Positions 10,330-20,266 of a stretch of 64,000 nt of DNA are shown one piece after another. Source of the stretch: Pirellulales bacterium (GTDB taxonomy: Bacteria; Planctomycetota; Planctomycetia; Pirellulales; PALSA-1355); NCBI GenBank assembly GCA_022844125.1, contig JALHMI010000009.1, forward strand, positions 62,001 to 126,000, read 5' to 3'. Position 1 is the first letter of the stretch. Every line of letters begins with the position of its first letter. The translations under genes and the position numbers were made by a program. The notes below the pieces were generated by a model, which saw nothing but the letters and a program-made list of their open reading frames with translations, had not been told where the DNA came from and did no database searches.

Positions 10330-11415
10330 ATGGATCCTCCCGCCACGCCGGCACTCGTTATCGACGGAACGACGGTCGTCCAGAATCTCAACCGGATGGC
10401 GGACTACGCCGACAGCCACGACCTCGACCTGCGGCCACACACCAAAACCCACAAATCGCTCCAGCTTGCCGATCTGCAGCTTGGCGCAGGGGCCGTCGGC
10501 CTGACCGTGGCCAAGGTGGGCGAAGCCGAGGTGATGTCCGAGGTCTGCCAGGACGTCCTGGTTGCCTATCCGGCAATCGACCCGGCCCGCACCGCGCGAT
10601 TGGCGCATCTGGCAAAGCACATTACGCTCCGCGTGGCCGTCGATTCGATTGAGGGCGCCAAGCAGATCGCCGCCGCGGCCAATCGGGCCAAGACCACGAT
10701 CGGCATCCTGGTCGATCTCGATGTCGGCATGGGGCGCACCGGCCTGCAAACACCGGGCGAAGCACTGAAGCTCGCCGCCATGGTCGATCGCTCGCCGGGA
10801 TTGCGGCTCGATGGCCTGCTGTTTTATCCGGGGCACATTCAATGTCCTCCGGCGGAGCAGGAGCCAGCCCTCGCCGAGGTTTCACGCAAGCTGAGTGATG
10901 CGCTCGAACTGTGGGCCGAGCACGGGCTGGAGGCGCGCGTGATCTCCGGCGGCTCAACACCGACAGCGTTCCAGTCGCACCTGGTGGCCGACCTCACCGA
11001 GATTCGACCCGGCACGTACATCTATAACGACATGAATGGCGTCCACGGCGGATTCTGCACGCTGGAAGACTGCGCCGCGACGATCATCTGCACGGTCGTC
11101 AGCACCGCTGTCCCCGGCCAGGTCGTGCTCGACGCCGGCACCAAGACGTTCACCAGCGATCGCTGCGGACCCGCGCCCGACAGCGGCCACGGTTACATCG
11201 TCGAATATCCCGATGCGGTGATCAACAAACTCACCGAGGAGCATGGCCAGGTGGACGTTCGCAAGTGCAGCCGCGTGCCCAAGCTCGGCGAGCGGGTGAC
11301 CGTGATTCCGAACCACGTCTGCCCCTGCATCAACCTGCAGACCGCGGTCTGGCTGCGCGACGAGGATGGCACGCTTGTCGAACTGCCGATCGATGCCCGG
11401 GGGCTGGTGATCTAG
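10330..11415 (+). CDS. DSD1-family PLP enzyme (D-threonine aldolase / D-serine dehydratase-like)
   Basis: 361 aa. The N-terminal alanine-racemase-type TIM barrel opens with TPALVIDGTTVVQNLNRM and the PLP lysine motif RPHTKTHKS (Lys about 40). The C-terminal barrel carries the metal motif VIPNHVCPCINL, in which a His and a Cys of the NHVCPC segment bind the divalent metal of this family. Members cleave D-3-hydroxyamino acids, as D-threonine aldolase or D-serine dehydratase. The gene faces away from the cyclase-fold gene and runs into the MFS transporter gene transcribed toward it, so it appears monocistronic. Class is confident; which substrate is used cannot be told from sequence. Confidence 0.88.
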   Translation: MDPPATPALVIDGTTVVQNLNRMADYADSHDLDLRPHTKTHKSLQLADLQLGAGAVGLTVAKVGEAEVMSEVCQDVLVAYPAIDPARTARLAHLAKHITLRVAVDSIEGAKQIAAAANRAKTTIGILVDLDVGMGRTGLQTPGEALKLAAMVDRSPGLRLDGLLFYPGHIQCPPAEQEPALAEVSRKLSDALELWAEHGLEARVISGGSTPTAFQSHLVADLTEIRPGTYIYNDMNGVHGGFCTLEDCAATIICTVVSTAVPGQVVLDAGTKTFTSDRCGPAPDSGHGYIVEYPDAVINKLTEEHGQVDVRKCSRVPKLGERVTVIPNHVCPCINLQTAVWLRDEDGTLVELPIDARGLVI

Positions 11416-11434: not shown

Positions 11435-12835
11435 TTACTCCGGCAGGTCTTCCGCTGGCGGTTCGGGCAGCCAGAAGCAGGCGATCGTGCCCACCAGGTA
11501 CACGAAAAACGCCACGCCGGCCGCGGTGTACGCCATGTTCATCGACGGCAGGTTACTGCTGGGCAGCATCACCGCGATCGTATTGGTCACCCAGGCAAAT
11601 GAGGTGCCGATCATGCGGCCGCCAATGTTCGCGGCAAAGCCTTCGCCCGTGCCGCGCAAGTGCATGGGATACACGCGAGGTAAGTAGTTTCCCCAGAAAC
11701 TGAACTGTCCGACCGTGAATACGCCGGCCAGGAAAGCGCCAATCGACAGCGCCGTCAAGCTGTGCATGGGCGTCAAGGCGAACACCAGCGGCACGATGAT
11801 CAGGCCCGGAATCTGAAACACGCGGAGCAATTTTCGCCGGCTGACGATTCGCACCACGAGAACCGCCAGCAGGAATCGGCCGAAGAGCCCACCGATTTCT
11901 TGCGCGGTGCCAACCTTCGAGGCATTCAAGCCTTCAATCCGCTTTTGCTCCGGCACCGGCTTGCCCTCCGTGGCGGCACGAACTTCGGGCACCCCGGGCA
12001 CGATCTGCGGCAGCTGCTGGATCGCGCCAAAGGCCGCGCCATAGCTGCACGCGAACATGATCGTGGTGATGATCGTTGTGGTGCGAAGCTGCGGCGCGAA
12101 CAGCTCACGAATGCTGGGGCGACGCAGCGTGCCGGCAGCGCGTCGCGCGGCCCAGGCTGGCGACTCGGGCAGGAACGGCCGAATCAAGATCAGCGGCAAC
12201 GCAGGGAACAGCCCCGACATCAAGGTGTACCGCCAAGGAGCGTGCGGATCTTTGATGGTGCCGAGCGACGAGAGCCACTCAGGAAGGGCGATCGCTGGCA
12301 GGCTCAGCGCGTTGGCCGTCGCAAGCCCGAAGGCCAGTGCCACGAGCAAACCACCGAACGAACTGAACGCTTGCGTATACCCCAGGACGTTCTCTCGTTG
12401 CCGTGGGTCGTTAAAAAGCTCGGCGAGCCAGGCCACGGCCGCCACAAACTCAACGCACACGCCGACGAACGTCGTGCAGCGCAGGATTAGCAGCATTTCC
12501 ATCGACGTCGAATAGCCGGCGGCGAATGCGGAGAAGGCATACAGCAGAATGCTCCAGGTGAGCACGCGCCGGCGACCAAGCCGGTCCGTCAGGTAGCCGC
12601 CGAGCAGACCGAAGATGCCGCCGGCAAAGGCTGGCACATAAAACAACCGCCCCGCCCAGCGCGCGAACTCCGGCGTGCCGGGTTGAGCACCTGTCAGTTC
12701 CATGATCGCCGGACGCACGATGAACTGGGCCATCAATAGTTCATAGATGTCGAACGCGAATCCGATCGCGGCCAGCGAGACGATCAACCATTGCGAGGGA
12801 GTGAGCCGGCTGGGAGCGGATGCCGATGCGTTCAT
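11435..12835 (-). CDS. MFS transporter (metabolite:H+ symporter type)
   Basis: 466 aa with twelve predicted membrane segments. The cytoplasmic loop 2-3 motif DRLGRRR is the MFS signature. The N-terminus (FAFDIYELLMAQFIV) resembles the metabolite:H+ symporter / sugar porter branch. A long loop between helices 6 and 7 (around residues 215-285) contains the EGKPVPEQKRIEGLNASKVG stretch, which is larger than usual and partly periplasmic or cytoplasmic. It converges on the DSD1-family gene and is divergent from the KamA operon. Substrate unknown; a carboxylate or amino-acid derivative is possible. Confidence 0.87.
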   Translation of the reverse strand: MNASASAPSRLTPSQWLIVSLAAIGFAFDIYELLMAQFIVRPAIMELTGAQPGTPEFARWAGRLFYVPAFAGGIFGLLGGYLTDRLGRRRVLTWSILLYAFSAFAAGYSTSMEMLLILRCTTFVGVCVEFVAAVAWLAELFNDPRQRENVLGYTQAFSSFGGLLVALAFGLATANALSLPAIALPEWLSSLGTIKDPHAPWRYTLMSGLFPALPLILIRPFLPESPAWAARRAAGTLRRPSIRELFAPQLRTTTIITTIMFACSYGAAFGAIQQLPQIVPGVPEVRAATEGKPVPEQKRIEGLNASKVGTAQEIGGLFGRFLLAVLVVRIVSRRKLLRVFQIPGLIIVPLVFALTPMHSLTALSIGAFLAGVFTVGQFSFWGNYLPRVYPMHLRGTGEGFAANIGGRMIGTSFAWVTNTIAVMLPSSNLPSMNMAYTAAGVAFFVYLVGTIACFWLPEPPAEDLPE

Positions 12836-13226: not shown

Positions 13227-14666
13227 ATGAACCGCGCTGATGCCGCACTTGTGGCGGCCCCCCGGGATGGAGTCCAGCACGACGACTTTGAGGAGCCTCC
13301 AGGTACCAGCCGTCGGCACCCCAAATGGAATGACGTTGCCGACGACAAATGGGATGACTGGCGATGGCAGATGCAAAACGCCATCCGCACGACTTCGCAG
13401 CTCGCGGAGTTCTACGCGTTCAGCCCCGAGGAGCATGCCGCCCTCGAAGAGCTCGAGCAGAAGTACAAGCTGGCGATTCCGCCGTATTACTTCTCGCTGA
13501 TCAACACGCTCGATCCGGCCGATCCGATCGCGCTCCAGTCGCTCCCCTCGCTGCTCGAAACCAGCAGCACGGCCGGCGTGGAGCTCGAGGATCCGCTCGA
13601 GGAAGACAAAGACTCGCCGGTGCCGGGCCTGACGCATCGTTATCCCGATCGCGTGCTGATGGTCACGACCCACGTCTGCTCGATGTACTGCCGGTTCTGC
13701 ACGCGGAAGCGCGTGACGATGGACCGCGACGGTTGGGACGCCCCCAGCCACGACGACGAGCGGATGATCGCCTATGTTCGCGAGCATCAGGAGATTCGTG
13801 ACGTCGTCATGAGTGGTGGCGATCCGTTGTCGCTGCCACCCAACCGGCTGCGGTGGTTCATCACCAACCTGGCCGCGATCGACCACGTCGACGTCATCCG
13901 GATCGGCACGCGCGTGCCGGTCACGCTGCCGCAGCGGCTGTTCGACCTGGATCTCGTAGCGCTGTTGCACAGCGCCGGCAAGATCTGGATTCAAACGCAC
14001 TTCAATCACCCTCGCGAGATCACCCCCGCCACTGCCCAGGCTGTGCGCAACCTGGTGAATGCCGGCATGCCAGTCAGTAATCACGCCGTACTGCTCAAAG
14101 GTGTGAACGATTCGGTCACCACGATGCGACAGCTCGTCCGCGGACTGCTGCGGATCAAGGTGCGGCCGTACTACCTGTTCCACTGCGATCCGGTCACCGG
14201 CGCCGGCCACTTCCGCACTTCGGTTTGGAAGGGGCTCGAGATTATCGAAGGTCTCCGCGGGCACGTCTCCGGTCTGGCTGTGCCGACCTATGTCGTCGAC
14301 GGCATGCACGGCGCCGGCAAGATTCCGCTGATGCCGAACTACCTGGTCTCGGCTTCGGACAACGCGGTGGTGCTGCGAAACTATGAGGGCATGCTCTTCC
14401 GCTATGCGCCGGAAGACAAGCCTGATGGCCTGGCGGCCGGTTACCCAACGCTGGGTGTCAGCTCGCTGCTCAGCGGCACGCGGACTGCGCTGGTGCCGGA
14501 AGGCACGCCGCGTTTCCAGCGGCGCGCCGATCATGCCGAAGCGCTGCACGCCGACGCGCAGCAGGTCGAAGCAGCAGGTCCCGACGTCATTCAGCTTTCC
14601 GGTTATCAGGCCGAAGAGCCGCCATCCGCCGAACACGACGGCTGGTCGCGCTCACGCGCGAAGTGA
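13227..14666 (+). CDS. KamA-family radical SAM aminomutase (lysine 2,3-aminomutase-like)
   Basis: 479 aa from the ATG at 13227 (GGAGG 12 bases upstream); a TTG at 13155 would add 24 residues. The radical SAM cluster motif CSMYCRFCTRKR (CxxxCxxC) lies near residue 150. The PLP lysine lies in GAGKIPLMPNYL. Both acidic residues that hold the lysine side-chain amino group in clostridial lysine 2,3-aminomutase appear conserved: one in the HCDPVTGAGHFRT segment and one in the VVDGMHGAGK segment. This suggests L-lysine to beta-lysine conversion rather than a diverged substrate. The usual family length is about 420-470 aa. It is followed after 29 bp by two ATP-grasp ligase genes, suggesting that its product is ligated to something. 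Confidence 0.92.
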   Translation: MNRADAALVAAPRDGVQHDDFEEPPGTSRRHPKWNDVADDKWDDWRWQMQNAIRTTSQLAEFYAFSPEEHAALEELEQKYKLAIPPYYFSLINTLDPADPIALQSLPSLLETSSTAGVELEDPLEEDKDSPVPGLTHRYPDRVLMVTTHVCSMYCRFCTRKRVTMDRDGWDAPSHDDERMIAYVREHQEIRDVVMSGGDPLSLPPNRLRWFITNLAAIDHVDVIRIGTRVPVTLPQRLFDLDLVALLHSAGKIWIQTHFNHPREITPATAQAVRNLVNAGMPVSNHAVLLKGVNDSVTTMRQLVRGLLRIKVRPYYLFHCDPVTGAGHFRTSVWKGLEIIEGLRGHVSGLAVPTYVVDGMHGAGKIPLMPNYLVSASDNAVVLRNYEGMLFRYAPEDKPDGLAAGYPTLGVSSLLSGTRTALVPEGTPRFQRRADHAEALHADAQQVEAAGPDVIQLSGYQAEEPPSAEHDGWSRSRAK

Positions 14667-14695
14667 TGCAGTAATGCAGTAGTCAGGAGCGACTG

Positions 14696-15766
14696 GTGAG
14701 AATCGGTTTGACCTTCAACGTTCGCCGTGCCGATGTCCCCGCGGGCGCAAGTGTTTCGGGAGTCCTGCCGCTGCCGGGCGACGATCTCGACGAGGAGTTC
14801 GATTCGCCCGAGACGATCGCGGCCATCGCGGCCGCGCTCCAGTCGCTCGGCCACGAGGTGGAACTGCTGGGCTACGGCGAACCGCTGCTCCAGCGGCTGC
14901 ATTCCGGTCCGCGGCCCGACCTCGTGTGGAACTTTGCCGAGGGACACGGCGCCGGACGATCGCGCGAAGCCCGCGTGCCGGCCGTGCTCGAGATGCTGGA
15001 CATTCCCTACACGGGCAGCGATCCGCTGACGCTTTCCGTGACGCTCGACAAGCCGATTGCCAAGCAGCTTGTGGCCGCCGTGGGCGTCGCCACGCCGCGG
15101 TGGTTCGTTTACGAAGGCGATGCCAGCTCGATTGATCGTGAGGCCGAGTCACTACGCTTTCCGGTCTTTGTCAAACCGGCCTGCGAAGGTTCCAGCAAAG
15201 GCATCCTCAACAGCAGCGTGTTGTACAACCTCGAGTCCCTCCGTGCCGCCCTCCAGCAATTGCACCAGGTCTACCAGCAGCCGGTCCTGGTCGAAGAGTT
15301 CATCGTCGGCGACGAGCTGACGGTCGGTGTTGTTGGCAACCATCCGCCGCAGGTGCTGGGCATCATGCGCGTATTGCCACGCGAGCAGAGCACACAGCCG
15401 TTCGTCTATAGCCTGGAAGTGAAGCGCGATTGGCAGCGGCAGGTACGCTACGAGTGCCCCGCGGCGCTCACACCCCACGACTCCCAGGCCGTGCTCGACG
15501 CGACGCTGGCCGCCTGGCGAGCCCTGGGATGCCGCGACGTCGCGAGATTTGATTTCCGCCTCCGCGAGGGAGTACCTTACTTCCTGGAATCGAACCCGCT
15601 GCCGGGATTGTCGCCCACGTCGGGTGATCTGGTGCTGCTCAGCCGATCGCTGGGCATCGAGCATCGCGAGCTGGTCGCGCGCATCCTCGCGGCGGCGATC
15701 GACCGCGTCGGCCTCGTAAACGCGCCTAGTGACGCCGCCGTAACCGCGCACATCACATGCATCTAA
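14696..15766 (+). CDS. ATP-grasp ligase 1 (D-Ala-D-Ala ligase-like)
   Basis: 356 aa starting at GTG (AGGAG 6 bases upstream). The N-terminal preATP-grasp domain opens with MRIGLTFNV. The ATP-grasp core shows FVKPACEGSSKGI (nucleotide-binding Lys and glycine-rich loop), LVEEFIVGDELTVGV and the metal-binding end VPYFLESNPLPGLSP (Glu and Asn). This is the D-Ala-D-Ala ligase superfamily, which forms amide bonds through acyl phosphates. It lies 29 bp after the KamA-like gene and directly before a second ATP-grasp gene, whereas a cell-wall Ddl would normally sit alone or in the mur cluster. Its TAA stop lies at the edge of a dispersed hairpin. The likely substrate is an amino acid or beta-amino acid; this is inferred from context. 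Confidence 0.88.
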   Translation: MRIGLTFNVRRADVPAGASVSGVLPLPGDDLDEEFDSPETIAAIAAALQSLGHEVELLGYGEPLLQRLHSGPRPDLVWNFAEGHGAGRSREARVPAVLEMLDIPYTGSDPLTLSVTLDKPIAKQLVAAVGVATPRWFVYEGDASSIDREAESLRFPVFVKPACEGSSKGILNSSVLYNLESLRAALQQLHQVYQQPVLVEEFIVGDELTVGVVGNHPPQVLGIMRVLPREQSTQPFVYSLEVKRDWQRQVRYECPAALTPHDSQAVLDATLAAWRALGCRDVARFDFRLREGVPYFLESNPLPGLSPTSGDLVLLSRSLGIEHRELVARILAAAIDRVGLVNAPSDAAVTAHITCI

Positions 15767-15793
15767 AGCCAGGGGAATACCCTTCCCTGGAAA
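15764..15793 (+). repeat. Dispersed hairpin repeat, copy 1
   Basis: After TAAAGC, arms CCAGGGG and CTTCCCTGG enclose a TACC loop region (15769-15790). It matches three other intergenic copies near 24080, 29004 and 49187. It begins at the stop codon of ligase 1. Confidence 0.6.
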
Positions 15794-15820
15794 GTGCCCG
15801 CGAACCGCATGAGGGCATCC

Positions 15821-16837
15821 GTGAAAGTCCTCATTCTCTACAACGAGCCGGCGCTGCCGCGCGATCATCCCGACGCGGCCTCCGAAGCCGGCGTGCTGGA
15901 ATCCGTTGAGGCGGTCAACACGTCGCTCGCCGCCCACATCCATCGTTGCTTTGCACTCGGCCTGGGACCGACCGTGGACGAAGCCATCGCCTCGATTCTC
16001 GACCTCGAGCCGTTCGACGTCGTGGTCAACCTGTTCGAAGGCTTTGGCGGCGTCGGACGCGGCGAAGCAGTGATCGCGGGACTCCTCGAGCTGCGCGGGC
16101 TGGCCATGACCGGTTCGCCGCCCGAATGCCTGGAACTGGTGCGACATAAACCGCGCACCAAGTGGCTGCTCGCCGGGGCGGGCATACCGACTCCCGAATT
16201 CTTCCTCGTTTCGCCGAACTGCCAGGTCGATCGCGCGCAGTTCGCCGTGCTGCTCGAACAGGGACCGCTGATCGTCAAGCCAGCGCACGAAGACGCCAGC
16301 CTGGGCATCTCGCTGGCGAGCGTGGTGACAACCGAAGCGGAACTCAACGAACAGTTAAAGCAGGTGCACGATCGCTTCGGCCCCGCACTGGTCGAACGCT
16401 TCATCGCCGGCCGCGAGTTCAACGTTAGCGTGCTGGCGCTGCCCGAGGCTCAGACGCTGCCGCTGGCCGAGATCGAGTTCGGTGAAGCCTTTCCGCCGGA
16501 TCGGCGAATCGTAACGTATGATGCCAAGTGGGCCGCCGACAGCGACGAGTGCGTCCAATCGGCAGTGCGCTGTCCGGCCGATGTCGAGCCCGACCTGGCA
16601 GCCGAGATACGCCGCGAGGCTCTGGCCGCATTTCGCGCCACGGGCTGCCGCGATTATGCCCGCGTCGACATGCGGGTCGACGTTCAGGGCCGGGTGTTCG
16701 TGCTCGAAGTGAACGGCAATCCCGACATCAGCCCCACGGCCGGTTTTGCCAAGGCACTCGAGGCTGGCGGAATCGAGTATGATGGCTTCATTCACCGCCT
16801 GGTAAAAAACGCCTATGCCCGCCGACCCCCAGCCTGA
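15821..16837 (+). CDS. ATP-grasp ligase 2
   Basis: 338 aa from a GTG at 15821 (MKVLILYN; GAGGG five bases upstream). An ATG at 15809 and a GTG at 15794 are alternatives, but the chosen start begins at the first beta strand, as in ligase 1. ATP-grasp motifs are IVKPAHEDASLGI, LVERFIAGREFNVSV and VFVLEVNGNPDISPTAGF. The fold matches ligase 1, but the two differ strongly in sequence, so they are old paralogues with different roles. The C-terminal EVNGNPDISP resembles ATP-grasp enzymes acting on amino-acid substrates. It overlaps the following LssY-domain gene by 23 bp. A dispersed hairpin copy lies between the two ligase genes. Confidence 0.86.
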   Translation: MKVLILYNEPALPRDHPDAASEAGVLESVEAVNTSLAAHIHRCFALGLGPTVDEAIASILDLEPFDVVVNLFEGFGGVGRGEAVIAGLLELRGLAMTGSPPECLELVRHKPRTKWLLAGAGIPTPEFFLVSPNCQVDRAQFAVLLEQGPLIVKPAHEDASLGISLASVVTTEAELNEQLKQVHDRFGPALVERFIAGREFNVSVLALPEAQTLPLAEIEFGEAFPPDRRIVTYDAKWAADSDECVQSAVRCPADVEPDLAAEIRREALAAFRATGCRDYARVDMRVDVQGRVFVLEVNGNPDISPTAGFAKALEAGGIEYDGFIHRLVKNAYARRPPA

Positions 16838-17681
16838 AAAACGCAACGACGGCTCACAGCCGGCCTCCGCGCCCGCGCCAGCAAAGCGCCGATATGGTAA
16901 GCTTCGCCGCATGATTCACCTCATTATCTGGTCAATCGTGCTGTGGCTGTTCATCGCTTACCTGCTGCTGCCCACGCTCTGGAAGCACTACGAACATCAT
17001 CCCGAACTGGCCGTCGCGCCGCGCACGACCGAGACTGTCGACCACATACCGGGCGATCCGCTGAATGTGACGCTGGTGGGCACCAAGGAAGAGGTCATCC
17101 GCGCGTTTCTCTCCGCGGGCTGGTATCCGGCCGATCCGATCACGCTTTCAAGCTCGCTGAAGATTGCCGAGACCGTGCTTCGCGGCAAACAGTACGATCA
17201 CGCGCCGGTCAGCAATCTGTTCGTGTTCGGACGCAAGCAGGACCTGGCGTTCGAGAAGCCCGACGGCAATAGTCCCAAGAAGCGGCAGCACGTGCGGTTC
17301 TGGCTCTGGGAGGGTCACGAGGAAGACGGCCGGCCTGTCTGGCTGGGCGCGGCCACGTTCGATCACAGCGTGGGTCTTAGTCATTACACGGGTCAGATCA
17401 CGCATCACATCGCGCCCGACGTCGACGCCGAGCGCGACCGGATGATGAATGACCTCGCCGACGCGGGACAGCTCACCAGTCGCTCGCAGGTGACCGGCGT
17501 GGGGCCGACGCTCTATGGCCGCAACGGAGGCGGCGACCGGTACTACACCGACGGCGAAGTGGACGTCGGCGTCCTCTCGGCCCACAATGCGCGCGTGGCC
17601 GAGGAGCCCGTGCCGCTCGAGAACCCGCCGGCCGTGAAGCTCAAGAACCGCATCTGGTCGTGGATTCGGCCGTGGCTGTGA
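16815..17681 (+). CDS. LssY C-terminal domain membrane-anchored protein
   Basis: 288 aa. A proline/alanine-rich N-terminus is followed by one membrane segment (about residues 38-58), then an LssY C-terminal domain: NVTLVGTKEEVIRAFLSAGW, NLFVFGRKQDLAFEKP, ATFDHSVGLSHYTGQITHHI and VDAERDRMMNDL. The domain is named after the Legionella LssY protein, where it is attached to PAP2-type phosphatases; here there is no phosphatase part. Its biochemical role is unknown. The 23-bp overlap with ligase 2 shows co-translation, so it should work with the KamA/ligase products at the membrane, outside or inside depending on topology. Confidence 0.85.
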   Translation: MPADPQPEKRNDGSQPASAPAPAKRRYGKLRRMIHLIIWSIVLWLFIAYLLLPTLWKHYEHHPELAVAPRTTETVDHIPGDPLNVTLVGTKEEVIRAFLSAGWYPADPITLSSSLKIAETVLRGKQYDHAPVSNLFVFGRKQDLAFEKPDGNSPKKRQHVRFWLWEGHEEDGRPVWLGAATFDHSVGLSHYTGQITHHIAPDVDAERDRMMNDLADAGQLTSRSQVTGVGPTLYGRNGGGDRYYTDGEVDVGVLSAHNARVAEEPVPLENPPAVKLKNRIWSWIRPWL

Positions 17682-17911: not shown

Positions 17912-19258
17912 ATGCCAGATGAGCAAGTAGTAACCGATCCCGCCCCTCGGCCGTCCGCCAGTCGGCGCTTCGGCGCGGCCGAGTGGTCTCTCGTCGCAAT
18001 CCTCGCGGCCATCAACTTCACGCACATTCTCGACTTCGTGATCATCATGCCGCTGGGCGATCAGCTCCGCCGGCAGCTTTCGATCAATCCCCAGCAGTTC
18101 GGCTTCGTCGTATCGGCCTACGGCATCGCCGCCATGTTCGCCGGCATTGCCGCCTCGGCTGTTGTCGACCGCTTCGATCGCAAACGCGTGCTGCTCATCG
18201 CCTTCGCCGGCTTCATCGTTGCCACGCTCTATTGCGGTCTGGCCAGTAGCTATCTCAGCCTGGTGGTGGCCCGGGCGCTCGCCGGATTGTTCGGCGGCGT
18301 GACCGCGGCCAGCATCATGGCGATCATCGCGGACGTGTTCCGACCTGAACAACGCGGCAAGGCGATCGGCGCGGTCACTTCGACCTTCGCTCTGGCCTCG
18401 ACGATTGGTCTGCCAGCGGGTCTGACAATCGCGGACATCTTCGACGACTTCGCCGCGACGTTTCTGGCGATCGCTGCTCTGGCCGTGCCAGTCTGGCTGT
18501 TTACGCTCTGGCGATTGCCGTCTCTGACGGGGCATCGCACCGCCGGGCGAGCAAATCCCATCGCGCAGTTCGCCGCCGTGGTGCGCCAGCCAAACCACCT
18601 GATCTCCTTCGCGTTCATGCTCGCGATGGTGCTGGGCACGTTCATCATCGCACCCTACATCGCGCCGTACTTGCAGTCGAACTGCGGCCGCACCGCGAGC
18701 GACCTGCCCATCATCTACGCGATCGCAGGCTTCGCCGCCCTGATCACGATGAATCTATTTGGCCTGTTGACCGATCGCTTCGGGCCGCGCCCCGTGTTCT
18801 TGTTCACCGCCTGCGGGGCCGTTGCCATGACCTTTGTGCTGACTAACCTGCCGGACGTCGGGCTGTGGGGGGCGGCCGCCGCCATGGGAGGATTCATGGT
18901 GCTGGCCAGCGGCCGGGTTGTGCCGGCTCAGGCCATGATGCTCGCCTCGGCCGATCCCGAGCTACGAGGCGCCTTCACAAACCTGACCACGGCCGTCTCG
19001 CACCTGGCGACCGGAACCGGCCCGCTGATCTCCGGAGCCATCGTGGGCGAAGCCTACCGCGGCGGACCACTCACGAACTACAACGTCGCGGGATACGTCG
19101 CCATGTCGTTCGGCCTCGTGGCGATCGGCCTTTCCTTCCTCTTGCGACCCGCGCGGATCGAGCGTCTCGAGTCCGGGCCCATCGTGGCGCGCAAGAAACC
19201 GGCCGAGCCCGCTTCCGCCGAGACGCTTCGCGCCACCACTGACACGATCAAGTCGTGA
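17912..19258 (+). CDS. MFS transporter (DHA1-like efflux type)
   Basis: 448 aa with twelve predicted membrane segments starting with WSLVAILAAINFTHILDFVI. The loop 2-3 motif DRFDRKRVLL is the MFS signature, and a proline/glycine motif GLPAGLTIAD lies in helix 5 as in drug:H+ antiporters. The ATG at 17912 follows GGGAGAGG by 11 bases. It stands 230 bp after the LssY gene with no clear transcription signal between, so it may or may not belong to that operon. Its 3' end overlaps the convergent DUF3050 gene by 11 bp. The exported compound is unknown. Confidence 0.87.
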   Translation: MPDEQVVTDPAPRPSASRRFGAAEWSLVAILAAINFTHILDFVIIMPLGDQLRRQLSINPQQFGFVVSAYGIAAMFAGIAASAVVDRFDRKRVLLIAFAGFIVATLYCGLASSYLSLVVARALAGLFGGVTAASIMAIIADVFRPEQRGKAIGAVTSTFALASTIGLPAGLTIADIFDDFAATFLAIAALAVPVWLFTLWRLPSLTGHRTAGRANPIAQFAAVVRQPNHLISFAFMLAMVLGTFIIAPYIAPYLQSNCGRTASDLPIIYAIAGFAALITMNLFGLLTDRFGPRPVFLFTACGAVAMTFVLTNLPDVGLWGAAAAMGGFMVLASGRVVPAQAMMLASADPELRGAFTNLTTAVSHLATGTGPLISGAIVGEAYRGGPLTNYNVAGYVAMSFGLVAIGLSFLLRPARIERLESGPIVARKKPAEPASAETLRATTDTIKS

Positions 19259-20024
19259 TCGCGCGGCTGATGCCGTCCCATAGCTCCCCGCGTGCCACAA
19301 GCGTCGCGCGCGCGGCTTCGGCCGCGGCCTGCCACTTCGTGACGTCGTCGCCGCACAGATTGGCCACCAGCTTGTGCGCAAGTGGGCCGTGCTCGCCGCC
19401 ATCGAGCTCGATGTGCCGCTCCAAGTAGTAGATAAACTCCGCCAGGTTGCCGCCGGAGATCTCGTTCAGCTCGTGCACAATTCGGGCAAACACATCCGGC
19501 AGCAGGTCCTCGCGTCCAAACGTGAACACGGCGGCCAGGACCGGCAGACTATCGCGATCGATGATCTCAAACGTGTGGCCGACGAACGCCGTAACTGCCT
19601 GCGGCGCTTCGCAACCGGTGAGCGCTGAGTCGACGTCGCTTGCCCCGGCCAGTCGATCGACAAAGCCGTCAATCCAGACCGTGGGCGCATCGCACTCGCG
19701 CATCGCCCGCAGGTAGAGCTCAAAATGACTGGCAAAGCCGCCCCGACCGTCGGAGTCGCATTCCTCGCCGAGAACGATCTCGTTCACCAGCCGGCAGGCC
19801 AGGGGGTCGACCGGCGGCAACCATGGCACGCGGACCGTTGTGAGTGACTTCTGCAGCGATTTCAGCAGCGACATGAAATCCCAGACCGCGAACACGTGGT
19901 GCTGCATGAACACGCGGAGCGCGTCCAGGTTCGTGATCTGCCGGTAGACGGGATGCTCAAGCAACTCCGTACGCACGGGGTCAATCGTCTCGCGGATCAG
20001 TGCCAAGCCATCTTCGGGTTTCAT
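19248..20024 (-). CDS. DUF3050 domain protein
   Basis: 258 aa from the ATG at 20024; a TTG at 20048 with AGAGGA close upstream is a possible longer start. Helical, with a histidine-rich motif [20 protein letters not shown] near residue 40 and [11 protein letters not shown] and [17 protein letters not shown] further on. These are features of DUF3050, a haem-oxygenase-like four-helix fold whose members may hold a di-metal or haem site (His/Glu pairs such as ERHIELDG). No function is established. It converges on the MFS transporter gene, overlapping its stop by 11 bp. Confidence 0.8.
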
Positions 20025-20266
20025 ATTTTTTAGTCGATTCTCCGGCAAGCTTCCTCTTGCGACCCATGCACGCCGTGGATTTTAGGCTGGGCCTTCCCGT
20101 TTGGGCGATGGCTGATTGGCGTCCAGCGCGCCAGTTCCCGGCCCACAGGGTGCACGGATACAGACGCTGTGCGGGTCTCGACGGCCGATTTTACAGTTCG
20201 GCACGGTCCTTGCGTCAGGGGTGCTACGGCGAATGGACCCACCAACTACTGCGTATAAGGGGATTG

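Follow-up and report, generated by a model that had tools for sequence, protein, structure and literature searches.

What does a lysine 2,3-aminomutase-like enzyme (KamA) do beside two ligases with the fold of the D-Ala-D-Ala ligase (Ddl)? The question is raised by four genes in a 64,000-nucleotide stretch of contig JALHMI010000009.1 from a Pirellulales bacterium (assembly GCA_022844125.1), which as a whole is referred to as the window. A preliminary description had proposed that they form one operon, in which beta-lysine is produced and ligated into a peptide, wall or lipid-linked product. Comparison across genomes shows that KamA and the first ligase, AG1, are a real functional pair, beyond chance. 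Together with the second ligase, AG2, they may be the window's copy of a widespread module for a small peptide of ligated beta-lysine, acetylated in part by a GNAT acetyltransferase, a reading based on sequence comparison and given close to, but not quite, an even chance. The genes, with the evidence for each (ORF, open reading frame), are:

13227-14666, + strand: KamA, lysine 2,3-aminomutase-type radical SAM enzyme (ORF, Pfam, NCBIfam, alignment to 2a5h)
14696-15766, + strand: AG1, Ddl-fold ATP-grasp ligase, core partner of KamA (ORF, Pfam, co-occurrence)
15794-16837, + strand: AG2, second Ddl-fold ATP-grasp ligase (ORF, Pfam)
16815-17681, + strand: LssY_C-domain membrane protein (LssY), lineage-specific neighbour (ORF, Pfam)

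The four ORFs are open at these coordinates, as first described, and the tight spacing was borne out: 29 bases separate KamA from AG1 and 27 bases AG1 from AG2, and AG2 and LssY overlap by 23 bases. KamA starts with ATG and AG1 with GTG, preceded by the Shine-Dalgarno-like GGAGGG and AGGAG, respectively; AG2 also starts with GTG, although its exact start is uncertain. Pfam assigns LAM_C (92.8 bits) and Radical_SAM (50) to KamA, Dala_Dala_lig_C to AG1 (115.2) and AG2 (106.1), and LssY_C (227.5 bits) to LssY.

Co-Occurrence and Linkage of KamA and AG1

AG1 alone was used as bait, with one genome per species, and the best 80 of at least 565 stretches encoding a relative were analyzed; thus, the sample is the one nearest to AG1. 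The 80 loci are almost all from metagenome assemblies, and by record title 72 of them fall into 14 named phyla (39 are Planctomycetota), with eight unassigned. One Bacteroidota record (L062) is probably mis-binned, judging from its KamA, which nests among planctomycete ones.

KamA was found in 63/80 loci, at less than 1.5 kb from AG1 in 60 of them and at about 3.9 kb in three (L091, L092, L094). A whole-genome search of the remaining 17 genomes showed that 16 encode KamA elsewhere at E <= 1e-92, and the last one (G208) has only a 35% identical KamA, with both of the lysine-binding aspartates described below. As a separate observation, the ~3.9 kb between AG1 and KamA-AG2 in the three widely spaced loci holds sensor kinase-like and response regulator-like genes, hinting at regulation of the module.

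With thresholds of E <= 1e-45 for AG1 and E <= 1e-80 for KamA, 148 genomes drawn evenly from Planctomycetota contained AG1 in 26 cases and KamA in 28. Both were present in 24 genomes and neither in 118, with AG1 alone in two (G058, G059) and KamA alone in four (G077, G086, G147, G148). Judged by listed coordinates, 22 of the 24 genomes having both carry the two genes no more than about 2.2 kb apart, the exceptions being G121 and G134. Among 57 nearer relatives, KamA occurs in 15, all of them with AG1; one genome (G025) has only AG1 and none has only KamA. Linkage varies in places: the KamA of G007 is split over contigs, the AG1-AG2 pair stands apart from KamA in G018 and G007, and the best AG2 match is on a different contig in G023, G047 and G051. 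In the cultured host Zavarzinella formosa (L082), KamA and AG1 are adjacent.

That the neighbours are unrelated and adjacent by accident is hardly credible. Each family is common alone and the genes are unlinked in G018, G007, G121 and G134, but co-occurrence outlasts the loss of linkage and the gene order recurs in many phyla. Sequence distances also co-vary, with rho of 0.63 for KamA-AG1 (61 loci), 0.65 for AG1-AG2 (49), 0.52 for KamA-AG2 (39), 0.53 for KamA-GNAT (20) and 0.45 for AG2-GNAT (23), and 0/500 permutations were as high for each of the five pairs; common organismal ancestry explains part of this co-variation. The functional tie first proposed between KamA and the ATP-grasp ligases is upheld by these counts, and linkage is kept across related genomes, the opposite of the outcome that had been named as a refutation.

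KamA and Its Predicted Substrate

Residues 28-433 of KamA align to the solved lysine 2,3-aminomutase 2a5h (E 7.6e-122). By alignment and script, the window's enzyme retains C125, C129, C132, R134, D293, D330 and K337 (2a5h numbering), which we take to include the radical-SAM cysteines (CxxxCxxC), the pyridoxal phosphate lysine and, in D293 and D330, the lysine-binding aspartates. The acidic residues noted in the preliminary description are, therefore, both present. D293 occurs in 63/63 KamAs of the 80 loci and D330 in the 62/62 having a letter there, and both are found in 17 KamAs from the genomes of the 17 loci without an adjacent KamA, while position 330 is Glu in five EpmB-type controls. 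The counts support beta-lysine as the building block, as had been suggested, and we infer from the residues that KamA makes it from L-lysine.

The best NCBIfam model for KamA is AblA TIGR03820, at 466.8 bits and below its cut-off of 525.4, and the KamA subfamily cut-off is cleared (320.8 vs 199.2). Identity with EpmB was ruled out by a score of 232.8, under the cut-off of 369.3, by the tree and by the separate EpmB of the genome, which scores 448.3. Glutamate and arginine aminomutases were rejected as well, their models scoring 416.8 and 373 vs 466.8 for AblA, with both aspartates kept. With the Bacillota KamA of L107, glutamate comes out marginally ahead among the models (465.1 vs 458.2 for AblA and 446.0 for arginine), and the residues alone favour lysine as the substrate.

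In a quick tree of KamA (supports by SH-aLRT, the Shimodaira–Hasegawa-like approximate likelihood ratio test, only), the five EpmB-type rows separate with a support of 100 and the window KamA is placed in a starred group of 27 linked rows. Taken together, the 64 linked rows do not form a single clade, with 5 label changes vs a shuffled mean of 13.1 (0/500 as low). Second, unlinked KamA copies with both aspartates (L209 and L210, in G153 and G071) cluster together in the tree; by eye, ORFs near the copy of L209 resemble agmatinase and deoxyhypusine synthase.

Two Ddl-Fold Ligases with a Changed Substrate Side

AG1 and AG2 are about 31% identical, and their AlphaFold2 models are confident, with a mean predicted local distance difference test score (pLDDT) of 90.5 and 91.6, respectively. 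For both models, the 50 top-listed PDB matches consist of D-Ala-D-Ala ligases and the related D-Ala:D-lactate ligase. With the NCBIfam Ddl model, AG1 scores 166.1 and AG2 131.6, both under the cut-off of 243, and neither reaches any Ddl cut-off.

Residues were counted in alignments against the Ddl of the window's genome, the AG2 rows including AG2-like copies beside AG1 in L096, L097, L099 and L100. The ATP/Mg residues are kept in AG1 (K119 79/79, K160 80/80, E207 80/80, K243 77/79, and R284, D286, E298 and N300 each 79/79) and in AG2 (K119, K162, K245 and R290 each 49/49, E208 46/49, D292 48/49, E305 42/48 and N307 48/48). On the substrate side, the Ddl His is replaced by Glu in 79/79 AG1 and 48/48 AG2 rows. 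The Ddl Tyr becomes Arg in 54/80 AG1 rows (the rest being Glu, Gln, Ser or Lys) and Trp in 46/49 AG2 rows, and the Met near the catalytic Arg-Asp becomes Arg in 77/79 AG1 and 49/49 AG2 rows. Glu82 and Arg288 are conserved residues of AG1. The placement of D311 of AG1 varies with the aligner, which sets it against either Ser281 or Leu282 of Ddl, and this residue was left out of account. From this pattern, AG1 and AG2 look like working ligases other than D-Ala-D-Ala ligases, and the common Glu and Arg suggest that they are sister enzymes.

The genome carries a separate, mur-type ddl, a gene whose presence had been proposed as a check. Its product scores 266.9 vs the cut-off of 243, and its neighbours are, by eye, MurB, MurC, MurG, MraY, MurF and MurE; with TIGR01205 it gave 217.6 (cut-off 245.65), the piece scanned being N-terminally trimmed. 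The epm-type genes, also proposed for checking, were found side by side on contig C4 (L141 7481-10287, G000:C4), where EpmB (448.3 vs 369.3), EF-P and EpmA (336.8 vs 286.9) are encoded. Since a separate ddl and EpmB exist, AG1 and AG2 are not the wall Ddl of the genome, let alone its only one, and the window KamA is not its EpmB; the second outcome named beforehand as a refutation did not arise either. A third Ddl-like ATP-grasp gene of this genome (L140 6279-7439, G000:C8:336416-337396) is 32% identical to AG2 and lies away from the mur genes, with similar matches in G023 (C199), G007 (C59) and G051 (C25).

Beta-lysine could instead be used in the envelope, ligated into a peptidoglycan stem, a bridge or another envelope peptide. 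The Ddl fold of both ligases and the membrane protein LssY are in line with this use, as are three Bacillota loci (L103, L106, L107) in which a MurR/RpiR-like regulator lies upstream of the AG1-KamA pair (recognized in L103 and L106 through clustering and inspection by eye). In L107, a profile scan placed MurQ above its cut-off and also found a BadF-type kinase, with an MFS gene in between. The mur context is, however, limited to these three related loci, the ligases miss the Ddl cut-offs in a genome that owns its ddl, LssY is not conserved, and neither GNAT capping nor units of KamA and AG1 only need a wall role. A wall or envelope role is, on this balance, unlikely.

Composition of the Module

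Partners were counted by profiles over the 80 loci, AG2 being counted if on the same strand and above 100 bits. The smallest unit seen is KamA with AG1. The order KamA-AG1-AG2-GNAT is found in 22/80 loci from several phyla, six of which continue with a gene for a CxxCxxCC protein. AG1 precedes KamA in nine loci, five of them Bacillota. Among the relatives scanned, Pfam shows a GNAT domain fused to AG2 in three (L046, L043 and L048), and in L045 AG2 is followed by an ORF that by eye resembles GNAT. The GNATs of two relatives gave no match with AblB at E 0.001, and no AblB match was obtained in the window's genome (search controls matched in 5/14). A stand-alone GNAT on another contig of this genome (C14:23786-24259), 34% identical to the fused GNAT domain, may or may not serve the module. 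This recurring partner, fused or adjacent to AG2 in relatives, speaks for a small acetylated metabolite no less than for the wall- or lipid-linked product first considered.

The CxxCxxCC protein occurs in 11/80 loci (L057 weak; e.g., L110 11619-12155), recurring after AG2 or GNAT and, in L129, between KamA and AG1. No homologue was found in the window's genome with one such protein as query and no positive control, and a literature search gave nothing on its function. Its recurrence would fit the tagging of a protein with a beta-lysyl group, on the model of EF-P, whose modifier is beta-lysine, and ATP-grasp enzymes can modify proteins. This alternative is very improbable, since EpmB, EF-P and EpmA, over cut-off, are encoded together on another contig of this genome and no conserved target gene stands beside the module in the 80 loci.

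ORF clustering of the 80 loci revealed no other constant partner: the other clusters cover 16 loci at most and resemble common families (response regulators, ABC ATPases) or the local gene order of about ten planctomycete loci. An antibiotic or signalling beta-lysine peptide as the product would agree with the patchy spread of AG1 (26/148 genomes of the phylum) and with the MFS gene that follows LssY in the window (17912-19258), and beta-lysine occurs in known antibiotics. Such a secondary metabolite is nonetheless decidedly unlikely, given that no other biosynthetic, resistance or export partner is constant in the 80 loci and that the short unit is kept across 14 phyla named in the record titles.

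At L099 (10212-11462), a peptidase family S58 gene lies beside AG genes, with homologues in L100 and L121 (by clustering) and no adjacent KamA. Some members of this family cleave beta-peptides.

LssY and Other Neighbouring Genes

The four genes were first described as one set, and this stands for KamA, AG1 and AG2, which travel together widely, but not for LssY. Outside the window, LssY was seen beside the module only once, in the nearest relative (G001/L053, almost surely one genome), where a fragment corresponds to residues 16-88 of 288. LssY is the sole LssY_C protein of the window's genome, and it may be co-transcribed with AG2 in this lineage. Its membership in the pathway, as initially assumed, is rejected, and LssY is a lineage-specific neighbour outside the conserved module.

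Upstream of KamA lies a divergent MFS transporter gene (11435-12835, - strand), also present in the nearest relative G001 (L039 12650-14056), and two genes upstream of KamA is a gene (10330-11415, + strand) for a protein with an Alanine racemase N-domain and a D-serine dehydratase domain. Further downstream, positions 19248-20048 (- strand) encode a DUF3050 protein (309.8 bits) with a weaker match to an iron-containing redox enzyme.

Proposed Pathway

In the proposed pathway, KamA would turn L-lysine into beta-lysine, as its residues suggest. With ATP, AG1 would then join beta-lysine and a second molecule into a beta-lysyl dipeptide or a similar compound, an activity proposed because of the fold of AG1, its intact ATP/Mg residues and its near-obligate co-occurrence with KamA. 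AG2, probably a sister ligase, would add a further unit or make a variant. Where GNAT is present, a free amine would be acetylated, resulting in a charge-masked small peptide that would most likely stay inside the cell and serve as a compatible or stress solute, the most weakly inferred part. Every chemical step is thus put forward conditionally, upon genes, residues, linkage and co-occurrence that are directly observed.

Several observations weigh against the small-peptide module. AG2 is found in 51/80 loci and is thus not universal. Neither is GNAT, found in 26/80 loci and absent from the window operon. The aspartate pair also occurs in six KamAs outside the module (four KamA-only genomes and two second copies), so it would mark lysine use and not module membership. 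In addition, no result tied the module to salt, and the three Bacillota loci have wall-recycling-type neighbours.

Significance and Comparison with Known Systems

No description of the KamA-AG1-AG2 set was found in a literature search of titles and abstract openings, with the subscription literature covered in part; a 2009 survey, said to deal with amidoligases and ATP-grasp neighbourhoods, may mention it. There is a real chance that the KamA-AG module is a new pathway. In its full form, the proposal that an undescribed pathway in more than 10 bacterial phyla makes a family of beta-lysine-containing, partly N-acetylated small peptides via two Ddl-fold ligase families acting on a beta-amino acid is put forward tentatively, at somewhat under an even chance. 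Genes that an annotation would call lysine 2,3-aminomutase or D-alanine--D-alanine ligase would thereby be united in a single testable pathway across many phyla, and the probable misreading of two families of ligases as wall enzymes would be set right. The proposal also predicts beta-lysyl peptides, which could be sought by mass spectrometry in a cultured host, for example Zavarzinella formosa. A bulk solute as the product would mean that an entire class of compatible solutes has escaped notice.

Among known systems, EpmB/EpmA acting on EF-P resembles the module in its KamA-family enzyme and its ATP-driven use of beta-lysine. EpmA is a class II synthetase relative, unlike the ATP-grasp AG1 and AG2, and the genome carries EpmB/EpmA separately. 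With Ddl and the D-Ala:D-lactate/D-serine ligases, AG1 and AG2 share the fold and the ATP/Mg residues; they differ in falling below the cut-offs, in the changes of His to Glu and of Tyr to Arg or others (AG1) or Trp (AG2), and in being tied to KamA. The L-amino acid ligase BL00235 (PDB 3vot), an ATP-grasp enzyme of dipeptide synthesis, is a distant profile match (E 2.5e-14 for AG1 and 9.6e-16 for AG2), far weaker than the Ddl match, and to our knowledge it has no aminomutase partner.

The abl operon, with ablA for lysine 2,3-aminomutase and ablB for beta-lysine N-epsilon-acetyltransferase, has an aminomutase of the same family, and a GNAT accompanies the module in part of its loci. The module differs by adding one or two ATP-grasp ligases, and in the window by an operon without GNAT in a genome without an AblB match. 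According to a review (PMC1224877), N-epsilon-acetyl-beta-lysine is made by an aminomutase and an acetyltransferase, and an acetylated glutamine dipeptide acts as an osmolyte. The latter, N-acetylglutaminylglutamine amide, is, like the proposed product, an acetylated small peptide, here a dipeptide kept as an osmolyte, but it is without a beta-amino acid. A masked beta-lysine peptide serving as a solute would fit both the logic of abl and this dipeptide osmolyte. By analogy, the best reading of the module would be a ligase-extended relative of the abl operon for the osmolyte N-acetyl-beta-lysine.

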